Program-made: the position numbers and the translations under genes
Shown here: piece after piece, positions 41,080-63,836 of the stretch
Position numbering within the stretch: position 1 is the stretch's first letter
Layout: each line of letters begins with the position of its first letter
Notes under the pieces: generated by a model
What the model saw: only the letters and a program-made list of their open reading frames with translations
What the model was told of the DNA's origin: nothing
Databases searched by the model: none
Source: Pseudocercospora fijiensis CIRAD86
Lineage: Eukaryota; Ascomycota; Dothideomycetes; Mycosphaerellales; Mycosphaerellaceae
NCBI RefSeq assembly: GCF_000340215.1
Contig: NW_006921545.1
Span: 942,786 to 1,006,785 of the forward strand
Length of the DNA: 64,000 nucleotides
Reading direction: 5' to 3'

Positions 41080-41121
41080 GTTAGGGTTAGGGTTAGGGTT
41101 AGGGTTAGGGTTAGGGTTAGG
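41080..41121 (+). repeat. Interstitial telomere repeat (TTAGGG x ~6)
   Basis: TTAGAG followed by six TTAGGG units and a partial one. The G-rich strand is on the plus strand, so it was once the right-hand end of a chromosome. TTAGGG contains neither CpA nor TpG, which explains why it survives RIP intact. Confidence 0.95.
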
Positions 41122-42734: not shown

Positions 42735-42766
42735 GGGTTAGGGTTAGGGTTAGGGTTAGGGTTAGG
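42734..42766 (+). repeat. Interstitial telomere repeat (TTAGGG x ~5)
   Basis: Regular GGGTTA units on the plus strand, capping the 26-bp element remnant and leading into unit T copy 2. Confidence 0.95.
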
Positions 42767-44705
42767 AATAGCTTTACTCTAAATAAAGCCGTAAAAGAAT
42801 AGGAACAAGAATAAGTTTATAGAGTCCTAAATAAATATAGAAGCAGTCCTACTACTCTTATAGAAATAAAGAAGTAGTTTCGCCTATTAGATACTCTTTA
42901 GGGACTATATAAGCTTATCTCTATATATCTACTCGTCGCGCGGAGTTAGATTGCCCCGACGGCGTAATATTAGGCCGTCGGATAGCTATAATGCCGTCGG
43001 ATAGATATATAGCCGTCGGGTAGCGATCTTTCTACGTCCTAGTAAGATTAGGGCTAAACTACCGTTACCTACTTTAGGCAGGTATAATTTCGGCAGTTGT
43101 TTTTAGCTTAGAATCCTTCCGGGAAGGATTAGTTCCGGTTCTAGACTCGTACGGGGAAGCGTACGGGTCCGGGAACGCTTAGTTCCGATCCTCGGTACCT
43201 TAGTACCCTTATAGGGCGGCGTAGTAAGTAGAGTAGATCTATACGGAGGGGTCTTTCCTCTATTAGCCCTTTAATTTAGCCTAGTATCTATAGATTATAG
43301 GTTAATATATATCGTTAAAAGCCTCTTACGCGGTACATTCCCCTTATACGTATCTACCTAGTGCCTAGATTAACTAGAGCCTAGGTAAATAGCTAAGGTC
43401 TACTCTTAGAAGGAAGGAGAAAGGGATTATAAGAGGTTTTAAGTTCTATCTATCTCGCTACAAATAGGGTATACCTCCCTATTACTAGGGGTAGTATAGA
43501 TCCTAATCTATAGGCNNNNNNNNNNNNNNNNNNNNNNNNNNNNNNNNNNNNNNNNNNNNNNNNNNNNNNNNNNNNNNNNNNNNNNNNNNNNNNNNNNNNN
43601 NNNNNNNNNNNNNNNNNNNNNNNNNNNNNNNNNNNNNNNNNNNNNNNNNNNNNNNNNNNNNNNNNNNNNNNNNNNNNNNNNNNNNNNNNNNNNNNNNNNN
43701 NNNNNNNNNNNNNNNNNNNNNNNNNNNNNNNNNNNNNNNNNNNNNNNNNNNNNNNNNNNNNNNNNNNNNNNNNNNNNNNNNNNNNNNNNNNNNNNNNNNN
43801 NNNNNNNNNNNNNNNNNNNNNNNNNNNNNNNNNNNNNNNNNNNNNNNNNNNNNNNNNNNNNNNNNNNNNNNNNNNNNNNNNNNNNNNNNNNNNNNNNNNN
43901 NNNNNNNNNNNNNNNNNNNNNNNNNNNNNNNNNNNNNNNNNNNNNNNNNNNNNNNNNNNNNNNNNNNNNNNNNNNNNNNNNNNNNNNNNNNNNNNNNNNN
44001 NNNNNNNNNNNNNNNNNNNNNNNNNNNNNNNNNNNNNNNNNNNNNNNNNNNNNNNNNNNNNNNNNNNNNNNNNNNNNNNNNNNNNNNNNNNATTTGTACC
44101 TCTATCCCTCTCTATTCGAGGGTATAGTAGTCTTATATTCTACTTCTCTTAATTCCGTTAAGAGTTAAAATGTTTATAGTAGGTATCTCGTTCGAGATAG
44201 CTATATCTCGACTCCTAGTTATCTCTCGGCAAAACCGAGTTCAGATTCGGAATTAGCGGAAAAAATAGGCCTATTTTCGATATTAAACGTCTAAATTCCG
44301 GGGAACTTCCGGGGGGGTCCCCGGACGAGGGCGGACGAGCTCGTCTACCCTCGTCCGCTCGTCTACCCTCGTCCGCTCGTCCGATTAAGAAAATAGAAAC
44401 GTAGATTTCTCGGTACTTTTAGATAATATAAAAATATCTACTACTTCTAGGGGGGTACCCTGCCGTGCTGTAAAAAACAGCCCGTAATATAAAAAACAGC
44501 CTACGCTATAAAGTGTAGCTATACTAAGAAAAATACTAAAACGTAGGGGGGGGCCCCTAGACTAGAGTATAAGTAGTCTATCGCTAAAAGCGAATATCTA
44601 GTCGTCGTATATAGATCTAATTACTACTTAAGGTAATAATAAGTATATCTAGTATAATATCTCTTATAAATAACGTCTTTTACCTACTTTAATAGGTATA
44701 GACGG
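42767..44705. repeat. Subtelomeric unit T, copy 2 (interrupted by a gap)
   Basis: Left part 42767-43515 aligns with 41122-41870 and the right part 44092-44705 with about 42011-42678. The copies differ by a few transitions and by one replaced block: CTAATACCTAG repeats in copy 1, CTCGTCTACCCTCGTCCG-type repeats at about 44325-44385 in copy 2. The gap as drawn is about 440 bp longer than copy 1 needs, so either its size is arbitrary or the copy holds extra DNA. Confidence 0.88.
43516..44091. other. Assembly gap (run of N)
   Basis: 576 N bases inside unit T copy 2. A gap at a near-identical repeat suggests the assembler could not resolve it, so the copy number of unit T may be underestimated. 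Confidence 1.
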
Positions 44706-46347: not shown

Positions 46348-46413
46348 TTAGGGTTTAGGGTTAGGGTTTAGGGTTAGGGTTTTACTATAGGGCACTTTAG
46401 GGTTAGGGTTAGG
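46348..46413 (+). repeat. Interstitial telomere repeats, mixed 6- and 7-bp units
   Basis: TTAGGG and TTTAGGG units alternate at 46348-46382, then two more TTAGGG units at 46396-46413 inside unit S. They cap the 5' end of the Penelope-like element. Confidence 0.9.
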
Positions 46414-46867: not shown

Positions 46868-48125
46868 TCTCTATAAGCTATACCGCGAAGATGCCCTCCG
46901 CGGCCTTCGCGAAGTAGTCTTAATAACTCGCTATACTCTATATGCCGCTAAGGACGCATTTAATAGCAAAGTCGGTATCTATACTAAGATAAGTCTCGCC
47001 TTTACCCCTTTAACGCGCCGCCTATTATATACTAACCTAAGTAGGTTTATATCTACGGCGCGACTTTGTCTATATATAGCTTCGCCGTCTACGTTACTTT
47101 TAGTCTCCTCTATACTAGTAAGAAAGTTCTATAGGAACCGCGAAGATACCCTCCGCGGCTTTCGCGAAGTAGTCTTAATAACTCGCTATACTCTATATGC
47201 CGCTAAGGACGCATTTAATAGCAAAGTCGGCATTTATACGAAGGTTAGTCTCGCCTTTATCCCTTTAACGCGCCGCCCGTTATATACTAACCTAAGTAGG
47301 TTTATATCTACGGCGCGACTTTGTCTATACGTAGCTTCGCCGTCCGCGTTACTTTTAGTCTCCTCCGTACTAGTAAGAAAGTTCTATAGGAATAGTTAAA
47401 GCGCCTTATCGCCGGCAGCTTAGTCGTTCTTATACTAATAAATAACAAGTTCGTGTCTCGCGCTATTATCGCTACTATTGCCGCTCGACTACTAGAGGGA
47501 CTTTAGTAGAATCTACCTAAGCTTAATCTCGCCTTTACCCGTCCCGAGGAGTTAGAGCTAGATCCTACTATAGAATATCTTATAGTAGAGGACCGTAGCG
47601 GACTTTTCGAAGCTAATCGGTATACCTTGCTTAGCCTTTAGCGTATAATACGCGAGGGTTTCCCCTTATTAGAGTACCTCGTTAGTATATAGCCTTATAT
47701 TTCGGCGCCTAAGTATTTTAAAGCATAGCCGAAGCGAGATCTAAGCTCTATCCTAGTTAACAACTCTAACGAGAGCTTCGAGAATATTAATATAGTTAAG
47801 TACTAGCCTTCTAAGCCTAATAGTACTCTAGACGCCTCCTAACTAGAAGCGCTCCGTCGTATTCTAACGGCGCGTCTTGCTATTATTTAAGGCCTACCCG
47901 GTACTAGTAAGACCTATGTCTCTATATAAGCTATTAAAGTAATGCTCGAAAACTAGAATAAGAGAGATCTACTAATAATTATCGCTTATTAGACTAACTA
48001 CGCTATCGACTAGTTTTTACGTTATATCGCTATATTCGAGGAAGAATTTGTACGTCTCGGTAGTCGTAGTAAGGATAAGGATATCGTTAAGCCGCTTCGT
48101 TAGGATACGACGAAGCGCTTCTAGT
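46868..48125 (+). pseudogene. ZNFX1/Hrr1-like SF1 helicase, truncated
   Basis: One plus-strand frame: LYREDALRGLREVV, an 85-residue block present twice in frame, KRLIAGSLVVL (about 47397), VEDRSGLFEANRYTLLSLQ (about 47580), LDASQLEALRRILT-type helix (about 47840), LAIIQGLPGTSKTYVS (Walker A, usual QGPPGTGKT, about 47880), IIIAYQTNYAIDQFLRYI (usual ACQTNHALDQLLRH) and FVRLGSRSKDKDIVKP. This matches ZNFX1-type helicases, which in fungi (Hrr1) support RNAi-directed heterochromatin. The frame breaks at about 48100 at a hairpin repeat, so helicase motifs II-VI and the NFX1-type zinc fingers are missing. Few stops but Pro-Pro and Gly of Walker A are altered. Confidence 0.88.
46883..47392 (+). repeat. 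In-frame 255-bp direct duplication in ZNFX1-like gene
   Basis: Copies start at 46883 and 47138 with CCGCGAAGAT. The period of 255 bp equals 85 codons, so the duplication keeps the frame. The copies differ by a handful of transitions. Confidence 0.92.
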
Positions 48126-48280
48126 TAGCAAGCCGCTTCGCTAGGATACGACGAAGCGCTTAAGAAACATTAAAGTAAGAAGGCGTTCGTATTCTAAGTC
48201 GTATCTCGACCGCGCCTACGTCTAGCTAATTAGCTATAACTAGCGATACGGCCCTCGCTCCGTTAGAACGCGACGGAGCG
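48091..48280. repeat. Three hairpin repeats
   Basis: CGCTTCGTTAGGATACGACG and AAGCG arms form a hairpin at about 48093-48118. It is repeated at about 48134-48159 with one base change, and a variant (CGCTCCGTTAGAACGCGACG-GAGCG) lies at 48256-48280. The first two end the ZNFX1-like frame. A piece of unit S (48170-48250) lies between the second and third. Confidence 0.8.
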
Positions 48281-48976
48281 CTTCCGGTTAAGAAATATAC
48301 GGGGTACGTATTCCCCTACCCCTTACCCTCCGGTTCCGTAAGTAGGGATTTACCTATCTTCTTAGCTATACTTTTAGTCTTATATTAAGTATACGAGGTA
48401 CCCTTTCCCGAAATCTAGCTAACCTATCTGCCCGATATTAATTAAATATTATTAGAACCTAGCTAACTATCTAATTAAATAGCCTTCCTTCGCTATTACG
48501 GAAGGCTACTACGAACCTTACCCTATATCTCGTATTACTCCGCCTATCGCCTAGTAAGGACTTTTACCTTTAATAATAGACCTACTAGTAATGCTCTTTA
48601 GGTTTACTTATCCTACGGTCCGATAGAGGAATAACTTAAAACTTTTAGTACGTACCTAAAACGCCTAGTTTTAGGTACGTACCTAAAGTTTTAAGTTGTT
48701 TACGGTATCCTTTAATTGCTAGACTTTAGGTTTTGCAACGTCTACGGGAAGGCCGTAGGTAGTATACGAACCTGCTTATACGTACTGCTTTATACGTAAA
48801 ATATACTACGCTACTATTCCTTGCTCTCTTATATATAAAATGTATCGCTAGAAAGGGGTAGCCCTTTCTAGTATTAGTAGTTTCCGCGAGATAGAACTAC
48901 TACCTCCTCGAATTCTATACTTATTAGCGCGGCTTATATATAAGCTTTGCCCTCCGCTATTAACGGAATTAATACG
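48281..48976. other. Region upstream of the large unrecognised gene
   Basis: Contains one long palindrome (48633-48697) of the family found throughout 48.6-63.3 kb. The rest may be promoter and leader; a TATATATAA stretch is at about 48938. No other gene recognised. Confidence 0.4.
48633..48697. repeat. Long palindrome, AACTTTAGGT family
   Basis: AACTTAAAACTTTTAGTACG... and its inverted partner ...TTAGGTACGTACCTAAAGTT-TTAAGTT form a 65-bp hairpin, the longest member of the family. Confidence 0.85.
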
Positions 48977-49710
48977 ATACCGCCTAAAGGATAGCGTAAG
49001 CTACTCGGTACTAAAGAGAAAGAGCGGAAGAAGAAGGCCGAACGTACCGCGAGGAAGTTAGCGAGTACGGCTCTACGACGAGCCTAGAAGAAAGTATAGC
49101 AAGCCGAGTAAGACCTAGGCGTAGTATCTTCTTCGTCTGCGCTACTACTATATCTAGCCGCTATATCGTCTACCTCCTCGGCTACCTAACCTATCCCCTA
49201 TATTAACCCTCTACTTCGTAGCTAAATAGGCGTAGTAGGTAGTTAAACACTCTAGAGTTAGCACTATTCGGCTAGTTAGGGACAGCTACTTCTCCTAGTA
49301 CTACGACTACTACCGCTCTCTTTATAGATAGCGCCGCGTATAAACACTAGAGATAGGCTATAGCTCCTCGCTACCTATATTAACTAGCTCGAGATCGACG
49401 ATATTATCGCGATAGTCGATTAATTTGCTAGAGCTAACGCCGCTAGCTCTACTCTAAGGGATAGTACTTCTACGTCTATCGTTTAATAATCGATCGTATA
49501 GGCTATCCCTACCTACGACTAGCCTCGGTTAGCTATTCGGCGGGCTCCTCTACGTCCCCTTCTCCCTAAAATAGATAGCACTTAACTAGTATACCTATCT
49601 AATACTCTCCCTTCGTATATAGGTCCTCTTACCTTACGTAGAATAGTTTACCGCCCCGCTCCGATAGCTACTAGACCCCCTTCGTCCGCTATAGTATAAT
49701 CCCTACTAGC

Positions 49711-50066
49711 GCTAGCTTCTATACTAGCGATACCTCCCGCGCTAGCTTCTATACTAGCGATACCTCCCGCGCTAGCTTCTATACTAGCGATACCTCCCGC
49801 GCTAGCTTCTATACTAGCGATACCTCCCGCACTAGCTTCTATACTAGCGATACCTTCCGCGCTAGCTTCTATACTAGCGATACCTCCCGCGCTAGCTTCT
49901 ATACTAGCGATACCTCCCTAGCTAGCTTCTATACTAGCGATACCTCCCTAGCTAGCTTCTATACTAGCGATACCTCCCGCGCTAGCTTCTATACTAGCGA
50001 CGCCTTCCTAGCTAGCTTCTATACTAGCGACGCCTTCCCCGCTAGCTTCTATACTAGCGACGCCGC
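49711..50066 (+). repeat. 30-bp minisatellite, ~12 copies, in frame
   Basis: GCTAGCTTCTATACTAGCGA plus TACCTCCCGC at exact 30-bp steps from 49711. Variants replace CCCGC by CCCTA or ATACC by ACGCC. Encodes LASILAIPPA-type decapeptides. Confidence 0.97.
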
Positions 50067-50345
50067 CTAAGCCTAACTCCTAAGGAAGCGTAGCTTATTC
50101 TTCCCTATTACTAGCTTCGAAGTCCGCTACTTAACCTACTTCGCCGACTCCTCGAAGAAGTCTCTCCTTCCCTCCTATTTTAGAGAGCCCCTCGTTACCT
50201 ACGACGCCGCCTAAGCTAGACTCCTAAGTAAGCGTAGCTTATTCTCCCCTATTACTAGCTTCGAAGTCCGCTACTTAACCTACTTCGCCGACTTCTCGAA
50301 GAAGTCTCTCCTTCCCTCCTATTCTAGAGAGCCCCTCGTTACCTA
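50061..50345 (+). repeat. 144-bp direct duplication, in frame
   Basis: Two consecutive copies starting with CGCCGCCTAAGC at 50061 and 50205; 144 bp equals 48 codons. Differences are mainly transitions. Confidence 0.93.
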
Positions 50346-53300
50346 CTTTAAGAGACGGGACGAATTAACTACTAGCCTTAGTATAGCGTAGTCGACCGAT
50401 CGTAAGCGCGAGTATATCTAAGTCTAATTCTAGAGATAGTATTCCTAGCCCTAGCTTAAGGGGAAGCCCGTCTAGATTAAGAGATAGTATTACTAGGTCT
50501 AATTTAAAAGAGAGCTTATAAAGGCCTCGTTCTAGAGCTTACCTATCGTAGCTATAACGTAGGCTCCTACTACGTATCTAGCTAAATCCTAGAGGGCGTA
50601 ACCCGCGCCCTACCTTACTAGAACCCCTACTACCGCTACGACCTACGCTACCGCGAGGTCGGTAGGATCGAGACGATAATAGCGACGTTACGCTCGAAAG
50701 CTCGCAAGTACCTTCGGTAACTAGTAGTTTAATCTAATCGGATTTAAGTAGTCCTTCGAGTAGCGACGCTAGGGTTAATTCCGACGAGGAACTAGACAAC
50801 CTACTTATTATATCGACCCCTTATAGTCGGATAGTACTTTACTAAGCGCTCGCCGTAGATAGTTGCTCTTATAAGTATTCCTAAGACTAGGATATAGACG
50901 TAGAAGAAGAGGAGCCGATACCGCCTAAAGTTATACTCGTAGAATTTGTTACTAAGGGTACTACCGCTACCTTCGCCTAAAGTTAACTTTACTAGCTCCC
51001 GGATATACTTGCGTACGTCGTAGAGTATAGTAAGCTCCCGACGTATATATACGAGTAGCTCCGAGGCGTCGACTAGCGTAGACTCCTTACCGGGTAGGTT
51101 AATAGGGTACTTTCTATAGTCCTATTACTCGAGAAGTCGTACCTTATATCTACTAATTAGCTATTTTATATTACTCGATACTAGGACATTAACGTACTTC
51201 TCCTCCCTATAACCTTACTTACGACCTATAGAGCCGGTATTTAGTTATTCTATACGCCTCGCTTTATAAAGACTATTACTTACGAGTAGTATATACTAGT
51301 AGGCCGCTCTCCGATACGACCCGAACGCTATAAGTATATACAGATCGCGACTAGACTCGATACTTCTAGATTTAATACGTACCTCTTCTTCCCTAACCTT
51401 CTACTCCCTAAAGCGAATCGAAATCGGAAGATCGACCGGCAACGTCGCTATTATATAAACAAGCGTAAACAGGCTTACTTTGTTAATACTATCCTTATTC
51501 CTATACTTCGCGATACTTATCCTTCTCGAGTGCTCGTATATTATCCCCTATCCTTCTAGTAAGTATATAATCGCGTATACGCTCGATAGAAATAAGGCGT
51601 AGAAGGTAACAATCGTAACGTTAGTAAAATCTCTTACGATATTATAGATCCGCTACCGGTAAATTAAGACCCTATAGTCGACGTAGCTATACTACGACTG
51701 TATTATTTATAGTAGGGTATCGAACGTCGGTTACGTCGAGACTTAGATATATATTAGCGGCGTATAGAACTAGTTGTTATATAGTATAGGACTAAAATCC
51801 GTCTAGAGGTATAGACTCCCCTAGAGCTTAAAGAACTCCTCGATTAGTCCCTCGAGCGCTAGTTTAACCCTATATATCGTAATATAGACCGCGCTTAGTT
51901 CGACCTCGCGTAGGAAGACATTCCTACTAGACTAGTAGTCGAAGACGTAGTAGTATCTCCGCTTATCGCCCTTTGCTAGATAGCCTATAGTATTACGAAG
52001 ACTAGCGGCCTTAATATCGAGTATCCTTAAGTATACTAGTAGTTCGGTATATAAGAGGCTTATAGTATCTAAGGCAAACTACTCCGTAAGTCCGTAGAGC
52101 GGCTTAGTAGTATCGGCTTCTTCTAAGGATATAATATATCGAAGGATCTCTTCGCGTCTATTAACCGAACGGTAGAACCTATTTTTAGTTAGTTAATACT
52201 ACCGCTTCTTATATTCTCCTAGTCTACTATCGACTAGGTAGCCGCCGTTACTTCCCTTATTACCTAAGATACTATATTTCGCCGAGCTTGTATCTTAGAC
52301 GCCTTTAAAGCGGAAATTATATAGGCGTATAATACGCTAGATAGCTACGCCTCGAGCACCGTTCTCTTTAGCGTACGAGGAGAGGTTCGTACTTGCTAGG
52401 ACCTACTCTATTAGCCTAATCTACCTATAACTCGCCTAAGCCTAACCGAGGGAGTAGACGGGCGTCGCACTTACTAGCCTTTCTTCGTACTCGAGAGTAA
52501 GTACGTCGTCGACTTTATACGTTTATAGTTAAACCGCTAGCTCTTTATAATATGTATAGTCCTTTTATAAAAGTCCGTTAACGTAGGCGTAAATACCGCC
52601 TAACTCGATCGTATAACTCGCGCCGTTAAGGAAGCCTTTACGTCGGTAATACTTAATATACTATTCGACTTACTAACTACGACCTATAATAGTAGTTCCT
52701 TTAGTATAAAGTATAGACTCTCTCGTAATCGTTACGACTAGTTAGGCGCGGGCGATAGAGAGTAGGAAGGAAGTCGTCGGGGTTTAAATATTATAGTAAG
52801 CCTTTGTACTACGTACGCCGCCTAGCTTCTAGCCGATCTCTTTAACTAGGTTTAACTACGCTTCTATACTGCCGCGCTCTAGTAGACTGCCTATACTACC
52901 GACTTCCTCTATAGCTAGCTCTAGGCTACTAGTTTAGGAAGGCTAGAGTAAGCTTTCTATAACTATATAAAGGAGACGATCGACCAATTTGTTACCGCCT
53001 ACTAAACGTATCGAGTAGCGTATAGGGAGCGTAAGGGTAACGACTTAGAAGAGGATAATAACTCGGATTAGTACCTAGGTATCGTTAAATAGGCGCTTTA
53101 GCGATTAAGCTAGGTATATAGATACCGCTATACTAGCTATATACTCTATATACTCTTAAAGCCCGATAAGCGCCTAGGGGATTAGGTACGGTTACGCTAC
53201 TTCTTCTTAGAGGAAGTTACCGATAAAGAGAGAGCCGGTCTCTATAGCTTTTCGTACGACCTTGTATATCGGATAATAGGCGGGAGACCTAATATTATCG

Positions 53301-54034
53301 TCGCCCGGGGCGGTAGTAGTAACGCTATAAAAGGCGGCTTTACCTTATTTACCGCTATCTAGCAAACCCGCCTTTAGCTACTCTTTAACTAGGACGACGG
53401 TTTTCGCCGCAATAGCTAGGAACGCCGACTATAGCGTAGGTAGGCGAGGTACTATTTCGACGTACTCGCCTTACTTAGTCGGGATTACCTAGACATTACG
53501 CAACAGTTTAAGTATAGTATAGGGCGTTATATAATAAATTAGATACGTATCCTCCCTACTTACGATAAAAGTAAAATCTATTAAGCTATTTAATAGAAGA
53601 AAATACCCGGTACTACCGCTTAATACTAGGTAAAGTAGGTAGCCGCCGTCCTAGTTAGCGCGAGTAACCTTATCTAGAATAGCACTATCCCGTAGCATTA
53701 GTCGCTCGTTAGTACTGTAAAAAAGAAGAACTAACTTTATATAATATACCGCTATACTCCTAATCTGCTCCGCAATTAAGGATAGTAGATAATTAGCGAA
53801 GATCTTATTAACTACTTTATAGCGATGCGACAGATTTAGCGACTAAGAGGGCTAGATAATAGTAACTCTACGTCTACCGACGACGACGATAACGACGAGT
53901 AGATTCCGTCGCGAAATAGTAAGGGAAGGCTAGCCGAATACTAGGCATAGCTACCGCTTAATATAGCTACTAGATAGCGCTAATAATAGCAAAAACTTCG
54001 GGCGTACGCCTAAAACCGTAGTTATATAATAAGT

Positions 54035-54829
54035 ATATACTAATAAAGAAACTTTAGGTGCGCACCTATTTAATACGTAGAATAGGTATATACCTAAAGT
54101 TCCTTTATTTACGTATAGTCTCTATAATATTTAATCGTATAGTTAAAGAAGTAGATATAGGCCGGTTAACTAAGTAGATAGCGCTTAAATGAGATTGAAT
54201 AGCGAGCGACTAGCGTACTACTAAATAAACAGATAGCCTATTATATATAATAGCGTATAATCTAGGTTTATTGCTTTGTCGACTTTACTAGACTAGCGTC
54301 GAGAATAATAGGATTCTATTACACTATTATTGTTCTATATGCTTAGAATAACAAAATTGCTATATAGTACTAACCTCTCTTTATCCGGAAGCTATACTAT
54401 GCTATTAGAGATAGAGCCTCGTAGTATAGGTAGAAATCTCGACCTATAAAGTCGGAAATTAGTATCTCGGAAGAGGCGTTCTCTACTACTATATATAGCG
54501 ATCTATATTTACTCGGAGCTATAGAATACCGCTAGATATTCTATTACACTGTCTACTTAATATATAGATTACTATAGCTCTTAACCCTTATATATACTAT
54601 AGGGTTATCGAGGACGATAACGAGGTAGACTAACTTTACTTAATAGGCCCTAAATTCTTTATATAGTTAACTACTCGAGGAACGAAATTATTACGTAGTT
54701 GTATAAGCTAGAAGGACTATAATTGATTGAATAAAGACGTTGTTACTTATTTATATACTTATGTAATTATTTATATAATTTAATGTTACGGAGACTGTTT
54801 CTATAATCGTAGTATTATATACCTAATCT
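54035..54829. other. Intergenic region after the large gene
   Basis: Contains the palindrome at 54050-54101, then AT-richer sequence with no gene recognised. The 3' ends of the two converging genes (48977-54034 on plus, 56440-54830 on minus) face each other across it. Confidence 0.4.
54050..54101. repeat. Palindrome pair with least-mutated core
   Basis: AACTTTAGGTGCGCACCT, a short spacer, then AGGTATATACCTAAAGTT. The left core GGTGCGCACC still has TpG and CpA; converting both by RIP gives the GGTACGTACC core of other copies. Confidence 0.88.
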
Positions 54830-56440
54830 AAGAACATTACCTTTAAGTAGCGTAGGGTTCTCTTCCTCTATCGATACTTTACGTAGAGTAGCCGTACCCT
54901 CTTCTATTACTAGTAGCTCGCGTTCCTTCGCTATACTTAGTCGCTATAGTACGACGAGCGTAATGTCGTTGTTATACGCCTCCTCCCCCTCTAGAAGTTC
55001 GATTAGAGGCATGTCTACTATATCGTTCGCTAGGTAGGCGATGCGATAGCGCTACTAATATATAATCGTTCCTAAGACTTTAACGTTACCTTCGAGGTTA
55101 AATGCCCCGATTCCGATCTCGTACTCTATCTCGCTATATAGTAGTTTAAGGTTATAGCGAAGCGCCTTAATATCCGCTATCGTAACGTTAAAGTCCGGTA
55201 GATAGTAATAAACTAAGAAGCGATACTACATCGATAGCTAAGTTTTCTTATCGAGTCTATACCGAGTATAACGCTTAAGGCTAAATATACCTTTATTCTT
55301 ATTACCTAGATCGGTAACAATCTAATATAAATACTAGTACTTCCTACAATCCGGCGACCGTAGCTACGCTACGCGAGAAACTAGAATATTATATATAAAA
55401 CCGCTATATACGAGTGCGACCGATATTAAGCAAAATCTAGTATATACCGCTAATCTATCCGTACTTTGCTATACGTCTTTTAACTACCGCCGATCCTTAT
55501 CTCGTATATCCTAGAGTCTAGAACGTAAGGTCTATATAAACCGGAAATATACGAGGGCGACGTCGTAGAGTCGTAGAGGTACTAACGCCGAGCTACGATA
55601 CCCGAAGAATGCATTATAATAACTTAAGTAGAGGTTGTCTACTAGGTGCTTAACGAACAGTAATTAGTCGTATATAGATCGCGACTACTGCCTTAGTATA
55701 CTCTCCGAGCTTAAGTTAATATATTCGTCGAGCCTCCTTTAACTACGTTCTCTATCGTATAGGTAAAGGTTATTCCCGAGACTATATAGCGGTCTAAATA
55801 CAGCTAACAATTATACTATCGTGCTAGGCCTACTATTATTATAGCTACTCGCATTAATTAATACTTTATAATACGTCTCCTATAGTATATTCTCGCGCGT
55901 CGGCGCTAGCCGCTAAGGATAATAAGGTAGTAAGCAACTACCTTATATAATCGAGAGTATACGGATATATATCGTTAAACTCCGTACCGGCAATAACGAG
56001 AAGTAGCGTTTGCGCTTCTTAATAGGCAAAGGAGGATCCGACTTCGTCTTAATTACGACCTCGCTAAACCGGAGACTAGGCCGTATACTCGCTATTGCTA
56101 TCCGAACTACTTCGTCGCCGTAGTTAGTAAGTATAGGTATATATAATAAGGGTCGCAATTCGGGACTACCGTTAATATAGAGAGCGACTAGGACCGCCGT
56201 ATATATCTAATCCTACGCGATAGTTCGAGTCTAACTATCGATACCGAACCCCGCCGGCTAGCGCTTATATTGTATCTACTACTCCCTATCTATACTATAG
56301 TTATAAGCAACCTAGACTTTATAGTCTCTATGCCTAACGTTTACTAGGTAGCGTAGGATTTAATCCTTTAGCTCGATCGACAGTTCGGAGAATAATATCC
56401 TCGCCTTAATTAGACAGTAGTATAAGGTTGTTATAGTAAG
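54830..56440 (-). pseudogene. Unrecognised gene (~530 codons), minus strand
   Basis: One minus-strand frame is readable across about 1.6 kb with stops only at likely Gln/Trp positions. Segments include LRPLLYIPILTNYGDEVV, IRPSLRFSEVVIKTKSD, KGIFSLKRYTRYRLDKK, FNVTIADIKALRYNLKLL, EIGIGAFNLEGNVKVLG, NDIVDMPLIELLEGEEAY and a final EEGTATLRKVSIEEENP. It looks like a folded protein ending in an acidic helix. A palindrome (56464-56488) lies just upstream of where it should start. No family recognised; the start is unknown. Shorter open frames inside it (for example 55943-56158) are fragments of the same frame. Confidence 0.55.
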
Positions 56441-56463
56441 TAGCAATAATAAGCGTTTAATAG

Positions 56464-56488
56464 AACTTTAGGTGCGTACCTAAAATTT
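56464..56488. repeat. Palindrome, half-mutated core
   Basis: AACTTTAGGTGCGTACCTAA-AATTT. The core GGTGCGTACC is intermediate between GGTGCGCACC and GGTACGTACC. Confidence 0.85.
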
Positions 56489-56719
56489 CCTTACGTTATA
56501 CCTTATATAACCTTATATAACCTTATAGGCTATTACCTAATACTAGTACGGATAAGCGTTTAAAGCAAATATCGCTATTAGACGTAGGATATGCCGCTAG
56601 CGGCAAATACGTAGTCCGTATATAATACAACTTTTCTTCTTTTACAAACCTGCTCCCTCTTTTTAACTTAAATATTAATATTAACCTTCCGTAGCACTTA
56701 CTATTACTAGCACTAGAAT

Positions 56720-56738
56720 AGGTATATACCTAAAGTTT
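56720..56738. repeat. Half-palindrome element
   Basis: AGGTATATACCTAAAGTTT, the right half of the palindrome, in the divergent intergenic region between the minus-strand gene and the SNF2 gene. Confidence 0.75.
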
Positions 56739-57292
56739 CTTTAAAAACACTAATAGTTGAACTATTTTCGAAAGAAACATATTACTATAATCGCGAAAAA
56801 ACTGTAGCTATAAGTTCCCTACTTATCCCTAGCGCGCGTAAGCGCAAATTAGGTACTAGTCCGCTAAGCGACCCGCCCTAAACCCCGACGTCTACTGCTA
56901 AGAAGTAGTATATCCTACTACTTAGCCTCGGCGATCCTTCCCCGAAAGAATCGCTAGTAAAGAAGGCTAAGACCGCTAACACGCCTAAGAAGTTAACTAA
57001 AGCTAAGTAGGATAAGACTATCGGTATAGAGATAGACTAAGATAAGCTTAACCTAGCCGAGCAGAGGTTTAAGGAAGGTCGCGTTAATAGCTTTAAGGCT
57101 ATTATAGATAAGACCCGCGGCGTAGTAACGGCCCTGTCCTATAGTTAAGGTGTCTATATAGCCGCCTACTCCTCTAGATCTATTAAGAACGAGACTACCG
57201 TAGGAGCTATAGAGATCCTAGTCGGCGACTAGTTCGTACGTATAATAACGAAGCTCGAGCTAGCGTTTAAGTATTTCTACTTATATCGCGTC

Positions 57293-57616
57293 GTAAGTAT
57301 AATAGGCCTAAGTATACCCCCTTTTTTTATTCTTTTTTTTCCTTTACCGTTATATCGATTCTACTTAAAAGATAAAACTTTAGGTATGTACCTATTCTAC
57401 GCGTTAAATAGGTACGTACCTAAAGTTTCTTTAAAATACTACGATTTAGGTATACGCCTTAAGTTAACTCTAAAGATAAAACTTTAGGTATACACCTATT
57501 CTACGTATTAAATAGGTACGTACCTAAAGTTTCTTCGAAGGTTTATAATTTAGGTATACGCCTAAAGTTTCTATATTCTTAATTCTCCTCTTTAGAATAG
57601 TACTAAGTTATTATAG
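57293..57616 (+). other. SNF2 gene intron 1, with four palindromic segments
   Basis: Donor GTAAGTAT at 57293, TACTAAG before acceptor TTATTATAG ending 57616. At 324 bp it is long for a fungal intron. It holds palindrome members at 57375-57428, 57444-57463, 57478-57532 and 57548-57570. Confidence 0.7.
57375..57570. repeat. Cluster of palindromes in intron 1
   Basis: Two paired elements (AACTTTAGGTATGTACCT ... AGGTACGTACCTAAAGTT and AACTTTAGGTATACACCT ... AGGTACGTACCTAAAGTT) and two single ones (TTTAGGTATACGCCT). Confidence 0.85.
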
Positions 57617-59120
57617 CGAACATTTAGTAAATACGAGAGCGCGTCGGCTAAGTACGCTAGACCCCTAGCGGGCATTCGCCGTAAGGCTAGACCGACTAAG
57701 CGTAAGGGCAAATAGCCCGTTTTATTAGAATACGTTAGCGATAGCGAAGACGCCTAAGGTTTAGACGATATAGTAGAGTAAGACCCTAATAACGACGTCG
57801 ATAAGATAGATATCTACGAGAAAGATAACGGTAACTAGTAGAGCTACCGACTCTAGCTTACGCCGAATAAGATCCTTAAGACTATCTCTAGCTTTACTAA
57901 AGGCTAGATTAAGATTAAGAGTATAATCGCGGAGGACGACGACGTCGTAGATCGCGCCCTTTCTAGCCCGCGCTATCCCGATACCGTTAAGAGCAACCTA
58001 AAGCGTATAGCCTTTATCTATATCCGCGCCGTATAGAAGATAAAGGTTATTCTAGACTCCCTCGATCCTATAATCGATCGGCTAGATCTAGTATATATTC
58101 CTACGTTCTTCGTAGGCACTCCTACTACGCTTTATAGACCTACTCTCTAGCTAGTCTATCTAGTCCTAGAGCTAGATATTTACGGAGAAGACCTCTATCG
58201 AGGACTACTACTCTTATACCTATATAATAAGATAAAGAATAAGAATAATAATAATAACGCGGTTAACCTATTACTCGAGCCGATAAAGATCTCCCGCGTC
58301 GCTACTACTACTACTCCGGTCTATATTAACCCGAAAGCTAGCCGAGTAAATACTAAGGAGTAGGACGAGCGTATAGGCAATATTATAGAGTAGTTACTAG
58401 ACCTCGCTAAGAAGGGTCTCTACGATAGATCTACTACTACGGAGATACGGCGTATATAAGCTAATACCGACCCGAATACTACGCTTAAGACCTTCGATAT
58501 TTTGTCTAAGCGCGGTAATATAAATCTAGGGACTAGCCTACGCCTAGATAACTTTGCTAATAACGAGGCGCATATTACCTGTATTAACAATATTATTAAT
58601 ACTACCGGTAGCGTACGTCTATATCTATAGCTATTTAGCGATCCTACTAAGATCGAGCGCCTAGGGTTCGATACCGTAATGCCTAAGGTTAACGTAAGCG
58701 ACGTACAAGCCTTTTAATAGCGGTACGCCGAAGACACTAATAATAAGCGTACTAGCGCCTATAATACCGACAGTACCCTAGTTATCGATAGCAAGATATT
58801 TGCGCTTATTAACTCCGCTATAAACTAGAAGAGCGCTAAGGCACCTATATTCGAGGACGCCTACGCTACGCTTAGCGTTATACCCGAAACGTTAAGCGTA
58901 CTAGACGGCTTTACTAAGTTAGGATTTAAGGCTATATACTACGGGCTAAGCTTGCAGCCTTAGTAGGTGTCTAGTGCTACGTACCTTAAGCGTATAATGC
59001 TCTCTTTTGCTCGGTTCGCTATTATAGGCGACGACGTTAGCCTCGGCAAGACTATTTAGGTCCTCGTAACGATCTACGAAATAGCGAAAGAGACTACCCG
59101 CTAGATTAAGGTCTACGATA

Positions 59121-59284
59121 GTAAGTTTTCCCTACGATTTATTATAAAACTTTAGGTACGTACCTATTCTTACGAGATTTAGGTATATACCTAAAGTTTT
59201 ATTATTTCCGATCGTTGTAATCTTTAGGTATATACCTAAAGTTCCTTCCTACTAACGAAACTTTTACTAACTTCTTATATATAG
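59121..59284 (+). other. SNF2 gene intron 2, with palindromes
   Basis: Donor GTAAGTTTTC at 59121, branch ACTAAC at about 59265, acceptor ATATATAG ending 59284; 164 bp. Splicing joins GAT-A to AT-AAG in phase. Palindromes at 59146-59200 and 59221-59243. Confidence 0.85.
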
Positions 59285-60704
59285 ATAAGGTTCGTACCCG
59301 TATAAGCGTCGTAATAAATATAGCTACTACGAAGTACCTAGAAGCCTATCGCGACTAGTTTCCCCCTAACTAAGCGCCTAAGAAGCGAGATATTATCGAG
59401 AAGATATAAGCGAGCGACGAGGCATTTAATCGTAAAGTATCTATACGCTTAGCTATATCGACTCTTAGTCTACGCCTTAAGTACCGCCTACCGATTATCG
59501 TCTACCTACCGAATAGTCTTACGGCTTAGCTTACTAATACCGGTATATACTTCTACGATCTAGATAGTAACCGTTCTAAGTATATCTATATATATACGTT
59601 CTATTTACTCGGTATTAAGAAGAATTAGCGAGATAATTAGTTTACCGAGTCTATACCTATCCCTACGAACCTCGAGGCTCTAAAGAGTTAGTTAGCCTCC
59701 TAGAGCGGCGATAATAAACAAACATCGCGAAATCTAGTACTTACTACCTACTAAGTACTACCTAGATAGATCCTCGAGGTCGGATAGACCGTTAGGGTCT
59801 CTAAGAAGCGTACTATAGCTTATAACGAAGATAATAAGGACGCCGACGGCTAAGCGGGCGATATCTTAGACGACGAGGATAGAGGTACTACGCTTACCGA
59901 CCTCTAGTAGGCGGAGCTTATAATATTAAACGTCCTACTTATCCTAGAAGACTCGTTCTCTCTTATCGCGGCCGACGAGGGTTATACGGTAGGCAACCCT
60001 AAGGTAAACTAGACCGACGTACTATATAAGTTACGTCCGTAGAATAGTATAGCTATTATCTCGGCTACGGTTATTCGTAACTATATATATAATATAGTAT
60101 CGATTGTCCGCTTTAGTTAGCGCTAAGTTAAGAACCTCCTAGATTTAGGTTCTAGTATTAAGAAGAATAGCTTAGACGTCGAGGAATATAGACGTCTATC
60201 TTATAAGTTCGAGATACTCTACGACCGTAACTAGAGCAAGATTCTAGATACCCTATATAGGCTTACGGGCTACCCGAATCTCCTACTTAACCGGTACTAC
60301 TTAGCCGCGCTCTATCCTAAAGCGATCTATAAGGCGATAGGTAGTACGGCTAATATCGGCTTCGTAATACTACTACTTCTAGGTCTAGTCTAAATCCGCC
60401 GTATTAAGGGCTAAATACTTATAGCGAATAGCGTCGACTATCGTATCGGCGCCGATATCCTACCTATATACTTCTATAATATCGAGATTCGTATAGACGA
60501 TACTAGCTATACGATCTATAATATAGCCTATAGGTAGTTTACTAATACGGTAGAGACTAAGCGTCTCTATACTATAGACGAAGACGATAAGACCGGTTAC
60601 GCTACTAGCCTACGCCGTTAGCTTATACTAACCTCTAATAACCCTATTAGCTCGGTTATACTAAGACGCCGCTTAGATACGAGTACTAAGCTTATTAACT
60701 TACT

Positions 60705-60804
60705 ATAAGTTTTCTAAAACTTTAGGTATATACCTTTTTTAGCTACGGTTTAGGTATATACCTAAAGTTTCTATAATTTGGATATTGCTAACCTTTTATT
60801 ATAG
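60705..60804 (+). other. SNF2 gene intron 3, donor destroyed by RIP
   Basis: Donor now reads TATAAGTTTTC; the preceding T makes TG-TAAGT to TA-TAAGT a RIP change. Branch GCTAAC at about 60787, acceptor ATTATAG ending 60804; 100 bp. Frame is kept across it. Palindrome at 60716-60770. Confidence 0.8.
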
Positions 60805-61916
60805 GACTAATAGCTCTATCGACCCTTTTATATATATTTATATATCGCTTAAGGGTAACCTCTAGACGCTACCGCCCTCCGATCGATTTAGCTACCTTAA
60901 CTTCCTCTACTACCTATCGCCGAAGTATTATACCTTCTTAGAGATCTTCCGTAACGTCGTACTTATCTAGTTGCTAAAACTCGTAGTCTAGGCCTACGAA
61001 CCTATCTCTCTTTTAATTATCGAGGCTATATACGGCCTACTCTAGATCGAATATATTGTAATCCGCGCTAGTATTAGCAATCGTAGCTACGTCTTAGCCG
61101 AGCGCGCTTTCCTAGACGACCCTAACGTTCGCGTTATAATTATATCGTCGCGTATAGGCGCCGAGTCTGCTAACTACTAGAAGGTAGCTCGCTATATAGT
61201 TATACTCGACGCCGTCTCGTTCTATATTAAGCTTTAAGCTAGCGGTCGACTTTACCGTATAGGCTAAGAATACCTAGTAACGGTCTATACCTTAAATATT
61301 AACGAAACTATCGATTAGGCCTTATAGTACAAATACGAAGTGCGGTTCCTTAAGTAGATTCGCTCTACCTATACTCTTAGCCTAGAAGATATAGAGGTTA
61401 TTATACGAGACTATCTATTCTAAAATAATAATACTAAATAGCGCGAGAACGACGCCGCAAAGGCGCTAACTAGTCTCGTTCGAGAGTCTATCGAGACGCG
61501 TATCTATACAGTTATAGCTAACGCCCTACTACGTACTATATATAGCGTACGCTCCCCTCGTACTAACGTCTCTTAGTACGATATTAAGGATCCTATAGCG
61601 AAGAACCTATTACCTAACGAGACGCTATACCGTTTAGTATATAGTAGCGCGGTTGCCCGTAAGGTTATCGGATAGGTCTAGGAGAAGAGCAACCTAGACA
61701 ACTACCCTAATCTCGTTAACGAGGACCTAGACCCCGCCGAAGTAGATAAGCTTAATATTAAGCTAGTCGCTAAGTACGTCGAGGACCGCTAGTACCTCTA
61801 GCGTAAGACTAGGCCCTTAGTTATCGACTAAGATAAGGTTAATAGACTCGTATAGTATTACGCCGACTAGCTTACGCGTATAGATGCCGCAAAGCTAGCG
61901 CACTTAAGTAGAACCG

Positions 61917-62025
61917 GTATATTCTACTATTAAAACTTTAGGCGTATACCTATTATTATACTCTTTAAATATATACCTAAAGTTTCTTCTAAATGTTTCT
62001 AAGTTAATACTAATAATAATTATAG
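61917..62025 (+). other. SNF2 gene intron 4, with palindrome
   Basis: Donor GTATAT at 61917, ACTAAT branch-like site about 62009, acceptor AATTATAG ending 62025; 109 bp, phase 1, frame kept. Palindrome at 61932-61986 (AACTTTAGGCGTATACCT ... ATATACCTAAAGTT). Confidence 0.75.
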
Positions 62026-62583
62026 ATATCGTATCCTAGTTCTACCGCTAGGTCGACTCGCTATCTAACTATATCCTTAACGGCCTTACCTACGTAGTAG
62101 AGTAGGATAGTATAGTAGTCTCTCTATAGCTTCGATAAGAGAGACCTCCGTTCTCCCTAATATAGACTACCCCTCTTATAGAAGATAACGAAGAGTAGCT
62201 ACCCTAGAAGCCTAACCTATTATCCCTCGGCGAGGAGGTTAAGAATAGTATTATTAATAGCAAGTAGAACGAATTAGTTGCCGCGGTAAACTAGAAACTA
62301 AACGCTATAAAGGCGACCGACCTAGCCCGCGCTAAGGTTCGAAAGAGTCTACGCGAGCTTTAGAGCCTTATTAGAGAGTAGGAGGACTACGAGGATTAAC
62401 TAATAGTATTTAAGGAGCGCTAGGCGGAGAAGGTAGCCGTAGCGTAGAAGAAAGCTTATATATTACTACCGCCGCTAGATAGTCCTCTACTATCTCTATC
62501 GCTACCTCTACCTCCCCTATCCCTAGGTATAGTAAACGGCGATTTACTACTTCCTCTATCTCCGAGCCCGCGGCTAGCTACGG

Positions 62584-62667
62584 TTAACGATAATCTACTA
62601 TATAATCCTTCGCTGTCTTTAAGTATTAACGATAATCTACTACGTAATCCTTCGCCGTCTTTAAGTA
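62584..62667 (+). repeat. 42-bp tandem duplication in SNF2 C-terminal tail
   Basis: TAACGATAATCTACTA units at 62584 and 62626; 42 bp equals 14 codons (NDNLLYNPSLSLS / NDNLLRNPSPSLS). Confidence 0.85.
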
Positions 62668-62999
62668 ATAGCGAACTTACTAATCGCTTAGATATACTAC
62701 CTACTCCTCTACCTACTCCCTTATCCGGACTCTTAGAGCCGACCGCTTAGGAGATCGCTACTACTATCTCGAATACTAGAGGTCTATATAACAAGTTTAT
62801 TATTATAAACCTACCTAGTTCGCTACCTATACCTAATAGTACCCGGGCGGCTAGCGAGATAGCGTTTATAGCTAGATTCGATCGGTTAAGTATATAGGAG
62901 CGAGTTCGGGCGTACGATTACCTACGGGATCTATCGGGCGGTAGTTACTAGAAGTAAGGTAAGAACCTATTTAATAAGTAGTAGAGTATTCGGTAATAT

Positions 63000-63300
63000 A
63001 GTTGTCGGTAATATAGTTAAAGCTAGTTCGTAGTAGTAGATATCTCTCCTCTCCTATATTATATATATATATATCTACTAGTTAGTAGCTTAGGGCGGAA
63101 ATGCGTCTATAGTAATAAAAGTTTAGATATATACCTAAAGTCTCTTCCTATACTAACGTAGTATTAAAGTATCTATCTTAAAAAACATATATATTATCTA
63201 TATCGGCGAAAGTTTAGATATATACTAAAAGTTTCTCCCTCTACTAATATAGTATTAAAGTATCTAATATATATATATAATAGCTAGTTAGTTAAAAAGT
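63000..63300. other. Spacer after SNF2 gene with two palindromes
   Basis: Contains palindromes at 63118-63143 and 63209-63234 (both with the AGATATATAC core, further mutated) and (TA)n runs near 63060-63075. No gene recognised. Confidence 0.5.
63118..63234. repeat. Two palindromes, most-mutated forms
   Basis: AAGTTTAGATATATACCTAA-AG and AAGTTTAGATATATACTAAA-AG; they lie inside a larger direct repeat (TATACTAACGTAGTATTAAAG / TACTAATATAGTATTAAAG type) of about 90 bp. Confidence 0.75.
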
Positions 63301-63339
63301 ATCTATAGCTATATACGAATACGTTTAGTATATAGCTCG

Positions 63340-63836
63340 CGTTCGAGATATAGCTCGCTATCGCCTACGAGATATCGCGTTCGAGATATAGCGAGATATC
63401 GCGTTTAAGATATAGCTCGCTATCGCCTTCGAGATATCGCGTTCGAGATATCCGCTATCGCCTACGAGATATCGTATTCGAGATATCGCTCGCTATCGCG
63501 TTCGAGATATCGTATCCGAGATATCGTATTCGAGATATCGCTCGCTATCGTATTCGAGATATCGTATCCGAGATATCGTATTTAAGATATCGCTCGCTAT
63601 CGCGTTCGAGATATCGCGTTCGAGATATCGCTCGCTATCGCGTTTAAGATATCGTATTTTAGATATCGCGTTCGAGATATCGCTCGCTATCGCCTTCGAG
63701 ATATCGTATTCGAGATACGGCTCGCTATCGCAGTTCGAGATATCGTATTTTAGATATCGTATTTTAGATATCGTATTTAAGATAGGGCTACGCCTTCGAG
63801 ATATTATATTCAAGATATAGCTCGCTATCGCCCTCT
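63340..63836. repeat. Minisatellite of CGAGATATCG / CTCGCTATCGC units
   Basis: Repeated GTTCGAGATATCG (14-bp type) and GATATCGCTCGCTATCGC (24-bp type) blocks, about 20-25 units in all. The unit core GATATC is self-complementary, so the array can fold into many small hairpins. The open frame at 63493-63813 is only this repeat read on the minus strand. Confidence 0.95.

Follow-up and report, generated by a model that had tools for sequence, protein, structure and literature searches.

A palindrome repeated through the introns and intergenic gaps of a subtelomeric element of Pseudocercospora fijiensis, a possible private cis-acting site

Why should one palindrome recur in every predicted intron of a gene and again in the gaps around that gene and its neighbours? 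The question is raised by a three-gene block, made up of an SNF2-family ATPase pseudogene and two further pseudogenes (gene 1 and gene 2), in 64 kb of DNA from Pseudocercospora fijiensis CIRAD86 that reaches the right end of contig NW_006921545.1 (C14:942786–1006785; the contig ends at 1,006,785). We refer to this whole 64-kb stretch as the window. An initial annotation offered three readings of the palindrome: introner-like elements that made the introns, a miniature inverted-repeat transposable element (MITE), or binding sites for a protein of the block. The layout looks more like that of putative protein-binding tags for an element than of newly made introns. We suggest, with a probability of roughly 0.4, that the palindromes form a repeated cis-acting site peculiar to one large subtelomeric element, and that they do not belong to introns as such. 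Neutral spread of a repeat, tolerated outside exons only, is a serious rival.

The pattern AACTTTAGGT-N4-ACCTAAAGTT, with three or fewer mismatches, has eight matches in the window, the first at 48667; shuffled sequences lead one to expect 0.02. A wider scan used the 18-mer TTTAGGTA-NN-TACCTAAA and gave 21 counted sites between 48.64 and 63.23 kb, arranged as seven pairs (centres 27–28 bp apart) and seven singles. The initial annotation had reported at least 14, often as spaced pairs. The sites lie at 48643, 48670, 54053, 54081, 56467, 56717, 57379, 57407, 57445, 57483, 57511, 57549, 59151, 59178, 59223, 60721, 60749, 61937, 61964, 63122 and 63213. They comprise all 19 matches with up to three mismatches beyond 48.6 kb and two of the six with four mismatches; these two (54053 and 61937) were kept as partners of better-matching sites. 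The remaining four (50569, 56524, 60529 and 63164) resemble background and were excluded. Before 48.6 kb the 18-mer scan finds no match with up to two mismatches, one with three and 20 with four; the initial annotation had seen none in the first 48 kb. From those 20 about six four-mismatch matches would be expected beyond 48.6 kb. Palindromes in general number 16, 23, 21 and 23 in successive 16-kb parts of the window, compared with 11–19 in six random sequences that match its first 16 kb in dinucleotide composition. A window-wide excess of palindromes is therefore mild at most and was rejected as an explanation; no comparable dispersed family was seen by eye in the neighbouring repeats.

Coding parts hold none of the 21 sites, a count that depends on the exclusion of 50569 and 60529, both of which fall inside coding sequence. 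By our gene models, non-coding DNA makes up 26% of 48633–63234. All four SNF2 introns and all four gaps around the three genes (upstream, between and downstream) carry palindromes; the initial annotation had placed them in every intron and most gaps. Intron 1 had been credited with four segments; palindromes are present there, but there are six of them, in a 104-bp tandem duplication. The pairs are U1 at 48.65 kb, U2 at 54.07 kb, U3a and U3b in intron 1, and U4, U5 and U6 in introns 2, 3 and 4. Most outer half sites of a pair read AACTTTAGGT and many inner ones finish in ACCTATT, so that each pair is also a longer inverted repeat, with arms of 27–33 nt in the cases listed.

The genome search covered 73.94 Mb in 30 contigs (numbered with C; loci or copies of the repeat element are numbered with L). 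A 16-bp core of the palindrome gave 212 matches and the reversed control pattern none. Every one of the 48 exact 20-bp matches lies inside the repeat element that carries the block (44 by coordinates or reading, four fetched), and so do all 50 of the core matches listed among the 212 (48 by assignment; the other two, L003 and L068, by reading). The two sets overlap in ten places and together cover 88 of the 212. Among these 88 core matches, the palindrome is private to one subtelomeric element. No match among those assigned falls in another gene or in another subtelomeric repeat, a distribution that is not random scatter over the genome.

The window bears strong marks of mutation. In all 16 of its 4-kb pieces the dinucleotides CA and TG stand at 0.03–0.23 of expectation and TA at 1.65–2.09. 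Such CA/TG depletion with TA excess is the signature of repeat-induced point mutation (RIP). The window has no open reading frame of 150 or more amino acids starting from ATG, GTG or TTG. Exon 57596–59120 contains 18–24 stops in each of the 23 copies compared, and exon 60805–61916 contains 18–23 in each of 25. The genes of the block, which the initial annotation had not treated as pseudogenes, are thus dead through RIP, the compared copies are inactivated and the palindromes now appear in a mutated state. RIP is reported to affect 60.2% of the 74.14-Mb P. fijiensis genome in the consulted portion of PMC4981473.

Across the 21 window sites, the six central positions deviate by transitions only; four of these positions lay in the search pattern and two were free. 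A less-mutated centre, GGTGCGCACC, persists at 54053 of the window as well as in further copies, and TAGGTGCGCACCTA has 23 matches in the genome. Sixteen of the 23 were assigned and three read, all within the element; the other four (C3:14625, C7:4548962, C23:328495 and C28:15698) are unread but fall in element stretches by coordinates, 60–299 bp off known sites. From the transition-only variation, the surviving GGTGCGCACC forms and the TAGGTGCGCACCTA matches we infer a pre-RIP core TAGG-TGCGCA-CCTA. TTTAGG is probably original sequence; it is never seen as a CA or TG form among the listed variants, which number at most eight per site.

The splice sites themselves are ordinary. The introns start with GTAAGT- or GTATAT-like sequence and end in TAG, with CTAAC- or CTAAT-like branch regions in introns 2–4. 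Intron 3 begins ATAAGT in the window and GTAAGT in copy L025; RIP has probably destroyed this 5′ splice site in the window copy. The palindrome tracts sit 13–83 nt from the 5′ and 26–41 nt from the 3′ splice sites, and the introns without their tracts measure 48–109 nt. The palindromes are therefore inside the introns and away from the borders, a correction to the initial annotation. Introner-like elements are known in Dothideomycetes (PMC4457414, consulted in part), where they are likewise repeated sequence in spliceosomal introns. As described there, however, they consist of entire introns, nearly identical to one another and located in unrelated genes. In the present case the palindrome is internal to the intron, belongs to one element and occurs outside introns too; the introns, 100–303 nt long, share the palindromes and adjoining bases and little else, the splice sites being outside the units, and none of the 88 core matches examined, nor any other assigned match, brings in a different gene. 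Despite the presence of the unit in all four predicted introns, it is very unlikely that introner-like elements created the SNF2 introns. That all introns of a gene contain one repeat does not by itself show that the repeat gave rise to them.

More weight attaches to a neutral short inverted-repeat unit of about 54–84 bp, fold-back or MITE-like, which would have multiplied inside the element, without a function, through local duplication or insertion over short distances, while exon insertions were purged and amplification of the element spread the units. We regard this as possible, if doubtful. U2 and U3 share 84 nt at 82% identity, in inverted orientation and extending past the palindromes, and the bases flanking the 24-mer also agree between units (first position 0.68, where 0.26 is expected, a figure inflated by counting the intron 1 tandem units apart). 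The number of palindromes is still changing by local duplication and deletion: besides the tandem duplication in intron 1, copy L010 has lost one site, and L048 and L049 have each gained one locally. Against a neutral unit, no assigned match lies outside the element, no consistent target-site duplication was apparent by eye in the flanks, and both subfamilies of the element carry the 17 SNF2-part sites, which are retained in 438 of the 440 copy-by-site cells when transitions and one further change are tolerated, so that no empty site is known. The MITE proposal thus fares unevenly. Inverted repeats resembling the terminal ones of a MITE, shared sequence past the palindrome and local extra copies agree with it, but among the assigned matches the unit is confined to one element and not dispersed in the genome.

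Transversions between the two subfamilies bear on the same choice. Fragment rows L038–L041 and L050–L052 were dropped from this comparison and from the copy-by-site count, and the majority sequence of subfamily A was taken without L019 and L021. Transversions occur at 1 of 408 palindrome positions (1 of 312 in introns), at 6 of 936 other non-coding positions (5 of 364 in introns) and at 138 of 5524 positions in the five exons (129 of 4054 in the three middle exons). The palindromes differ from all exons (Fisher p 0.001) and from the three middle exons (p 0.001), and the intronic palindromes differ from the exons (p 0.007). 

The pairs also fold into long hairpins, five of the seven stretches folded having z between −4.8 and −8.4, which would suit elements acting in RNA, either as pre-mRNA hairpins that draw splice sites together or in untranslated regions. 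We think such a role distinctly improbable. The fold follows from the palindromy of the DNA itself, intron 4 and 63105–63245 give z of only −0.99 and 0.13, and the sites upstream and downstream of genes mean that a purely intronic RNA role cannot explain them all.

We narrowly prefer functional DNA sites to a neutral repeat, on three grounds: their confinement to one element, the coverage of every recognised gap, and a parallel to the VANC target motifs of plants discussed below. A putative dimeric protein, whether the element's own or supplied by the host, would bind the palindromes as double-stranded DNA. Once bound it might act on the element itself by driving expression, opposing silencing or tethering it at telomeres, possibly with the involvement of the element's own SNF2 remodeller; the sites would be copied as singles or as pairs 27–28 bp apart. 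Of the three readings in the initial annotation, binding sites for a protein of the block fit best, although their support is indirect. Several observations weigh against functional sites. Absence from exons is equally expected from neutral insertion with selection on coding sequence. The palindromes are no different from the rest of non-coding DNA (p 0.68; introns alone p 0.23), and their difference from exons within the divergent tract is reduced to p 0.02. Conservation therefore does not single them out: it is non-coding DNA as a whole that is better kept than exons, for which gene conversion could be the cause. In addition, no DNA-binding domain was recognised in gene 1 or gene 2 by Pfam and PDB matching, and the left part of the element (46.38–48.63 kb) has no palindromes.

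In plants, transposons are documented to recognise themselves through sequence motifs. In the consulted portion of PMC5735166, the VANC target motifs of Arabidopsis VANDAL transposons lie in introns, intergenic and terminal non-coding DNA and not in the coding parts tested; they are 8–9 bp long and increase by tandem repeats. The P. fijiensis palindrome is similarly a short motif of one element family, private, among the matches assigned, to the non-coding parts of its element except the left part, and has grown in number by tandem duplication. In contrast, it is longer than the VANC motifs, for which the word 'palindrome' is absent from the main text of that article, and it is found in a fungus, in copies stacked near chromosome ends with an SNF2 gene; no VANC-like gene was found. 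The resemblance is a parallel in layout and not one of membership. It is conceivable, though unlikely, that the parallel extends to self-marking, the element tagging the gaps of its gene block with the palindrome so that its own putative dimeric protein and SNF2 could recognise and open its own copies alone, in a genome where repeats are silenced and mutated. If true, a fungal case with long palindromes under RIP would suggest that the same layout, tags in non-coding gaps with introns included, was reached under very different silencing regimes. The palindrome is unmentioned in the titles and abstract portions consulted of the literature on RIP subtelomeres with SNF2 or palindromes and on telomere-linked helicases.

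The three-gene block sits in a multi-gene repeat of at least 17 kb. Its SNF2 part is represented by at least 26 long rows of the search (window included), the 46–50 kb segment by at least 28 near-complete rows besides the window, and the 61–64 kb segment, or 3′ part, by at least 40 rows (window included). Thirty-one of the 40 are found no more than 100 kb from a contig end, each with the 3′ side of SNF2 turned towards it; three of the 40 are more than 2.8 Mb inside contigs (two in C1 and, probably, one in C6). Proximity to chromosome ends, together with the TTAGGG runs at the left terminus, could be taken to mean that the palindromes bind a host telomere factor, their half site TTTAGGT resembling TTAGGG, for tethering or silencing there. 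This is improbable: the half site is one G short of the telomere repeat, and none of the assigned matches belongs to a different subtelomeric repeat.

The left end of the element is fixed and its right ends are variable and eroded. Of the 30 other listed rows with this end, 25 start at window 46381–46384 and five start up to 37 bp earlier. Sequence to the left of the terminus differs in each of six junctions read. Four of them join broken copies of the same element, at 63564 (L016), 63313 (L040), 62293 (L022) and about 63.2 kb (L021); in L045 the join is inverted and falls at the pair U1, and L063 has sequence beyond 64.0 kb left of the terminus. The terminus (window 46383, in the region 46348–46410) stands next to eroded copies of the element or other sequence. 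This fixed left end with differently truncated neighbours suggests that elements were added successively, head to tail, at eroding chromosome ends. A large element with such ends, stacked head to tail, would be of note in itself.

Multi-copy repeats with helicase genes near chromosome ends recall the telomere-associated elements of other fungi (telomere-linked helicase genes and FoTeRs), as far as the consulted portions of that literature describe them. The present element differs in having SNF2 and ZNFX1-type helicases, a fixed left end and a variable right one; the scanned subset of frames gave no match to a reverse transcriptase or transposase. Terminons, giant telomeric retroelements, likewise stack at chromosome ends and bear multiple genes in both orientations; the likeness to them is one of resemblance only, given the lack of a reverse transcriptase match in the scanned frames. 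No literature on subtelomeric helicases of P. fijiensis was found. We also note a cluster of several element copies inside a contig, far from its ends (C1:7741000–7847000); it could stem from an old fusion or a misjoin, or be a genuine internal array. Two further repeats are likewise joined to broken copies of the SNF2 element, each through a constant point of its own: a repeat like window 30.6–31.1 kb in L014 and L028, the other in L003 and L064. The coordinates of the features are collected in the table.

Table. Features of the element and its gene block in the window (window coordinates)
Feature	Position	Strand	Remarks
Repeat element, left terminus	46383..46410	+	Begins TACTATAGGG, then short telomere-like TTAGGG run; from row starts and junction reads
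ZNFX1/UPF1-like helicase remnant	47402..48600	+	ZNFX1 1.5e-11, AAA_11 4e-8 (Pfam, read-through frame)
Palindrome pair U1, upstream of gene 1	48637..48693		Within 33-nt inverted repeat; hairpin z −8.43
Gene 1 pseudogene, ~1246 codons	50300..54039	+	Readable frame, transversion codon positions; true start may be upstream
Palindrome pair U2	54049..54101		Between 3′ ends of genes 1 and 2; retains centre GGTGCGCACC
Gene 2 pseudogene, ~544 codons	54826..56458	-	Readable minus frame
Single palindrome	56464..56487		Directly upstream of gene 2
Single palindrome	56714..56737		Upstream of SNF2, 250 bp past the palindrome at 56464..56487
SNF2-family ATPase pseudogene, five exons	56798..63000	+	Exon model, phases; outer ends approximate
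SNF2 exons	56798-57292, 57596-59120, 59285-60704, 60805-61916, 62026-63000	+	
Intron 1, 303 nt	57293..57595	+	Six palindromes 57376-57569, two 104-bp tandem units
Intron 2, 164 nt	59121..59284	+	Three palindromes 59148-59243
Intron 3, 100 nt	60705..60804	+	Pair U5; GT to AT in window, GT in copy L025
Intron 4, 109 nt	61917..62025	+	Pair U6
Single palindrome, downstream of SNF2	63119..63142		
Last palindrome of block, degenerate	63210..63233		

With stops read as X, the SNF2 gene gives about 1842 codons in five exons with consistent splice phases. Its reading contains GDDVSLGKT and RLYRIG, which we take to be SNF2 ATPase motifs. Compared with the PDB, exon 60805–61916 matches SNF2-type ATPases (best fft3 2.4e-4, then FUN30 1.7e-3 and more SNF2 ATPases); exon 59285–60704 has no SNF2 match there, and the SNF2 matches in Pfam fall below the cut-off (E 0.07–0.09). 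On these motifs and family matches, the predicted product is an SNF2 ATPase. Transversions between copies of gene 1 number 9, 7 and 16 at codon positions 1, 2 and 3, and this excess at third positions supports its coding frame. For family, gene 1 has weak Pfam matches below the cut-off (E 0.08–0.1) and no PDB match. Gene 2 is defined by readability alone, its ten transversions being uninformative, and has weak Pfam matches below the cut-off only (DUF6929, DUF6910 and 2EXR; E 0.08–0.12). No relative turned up in homologue searches with the read-through proteins of SNF2, gene 1 and gene 2. The Pfam scan took in five of six frames at 48.7–54.0 kb and the gene 2 frame alone at 54.1–56.5 kb; a gene in other frames of 48.7–56.5 kb could be missed.

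Rfam gave no matches at gathering thresholds over 46–64 kb. In the helicase remnant at 47402–48600, the Pfam match spans the first half of AAA_11 only. A tandem 14-bp/38-bp repeat (TATCG..TTCGAGA) occupies 63337–63831 on the 3′ side of the element. A run of N at 43515–44092 is an assembly gap or a masked stretch. Interstitial TTAGGG arrays are observed in the subtelomeric repeats at 41081–41116, 42738–42761 and 46355–46408.

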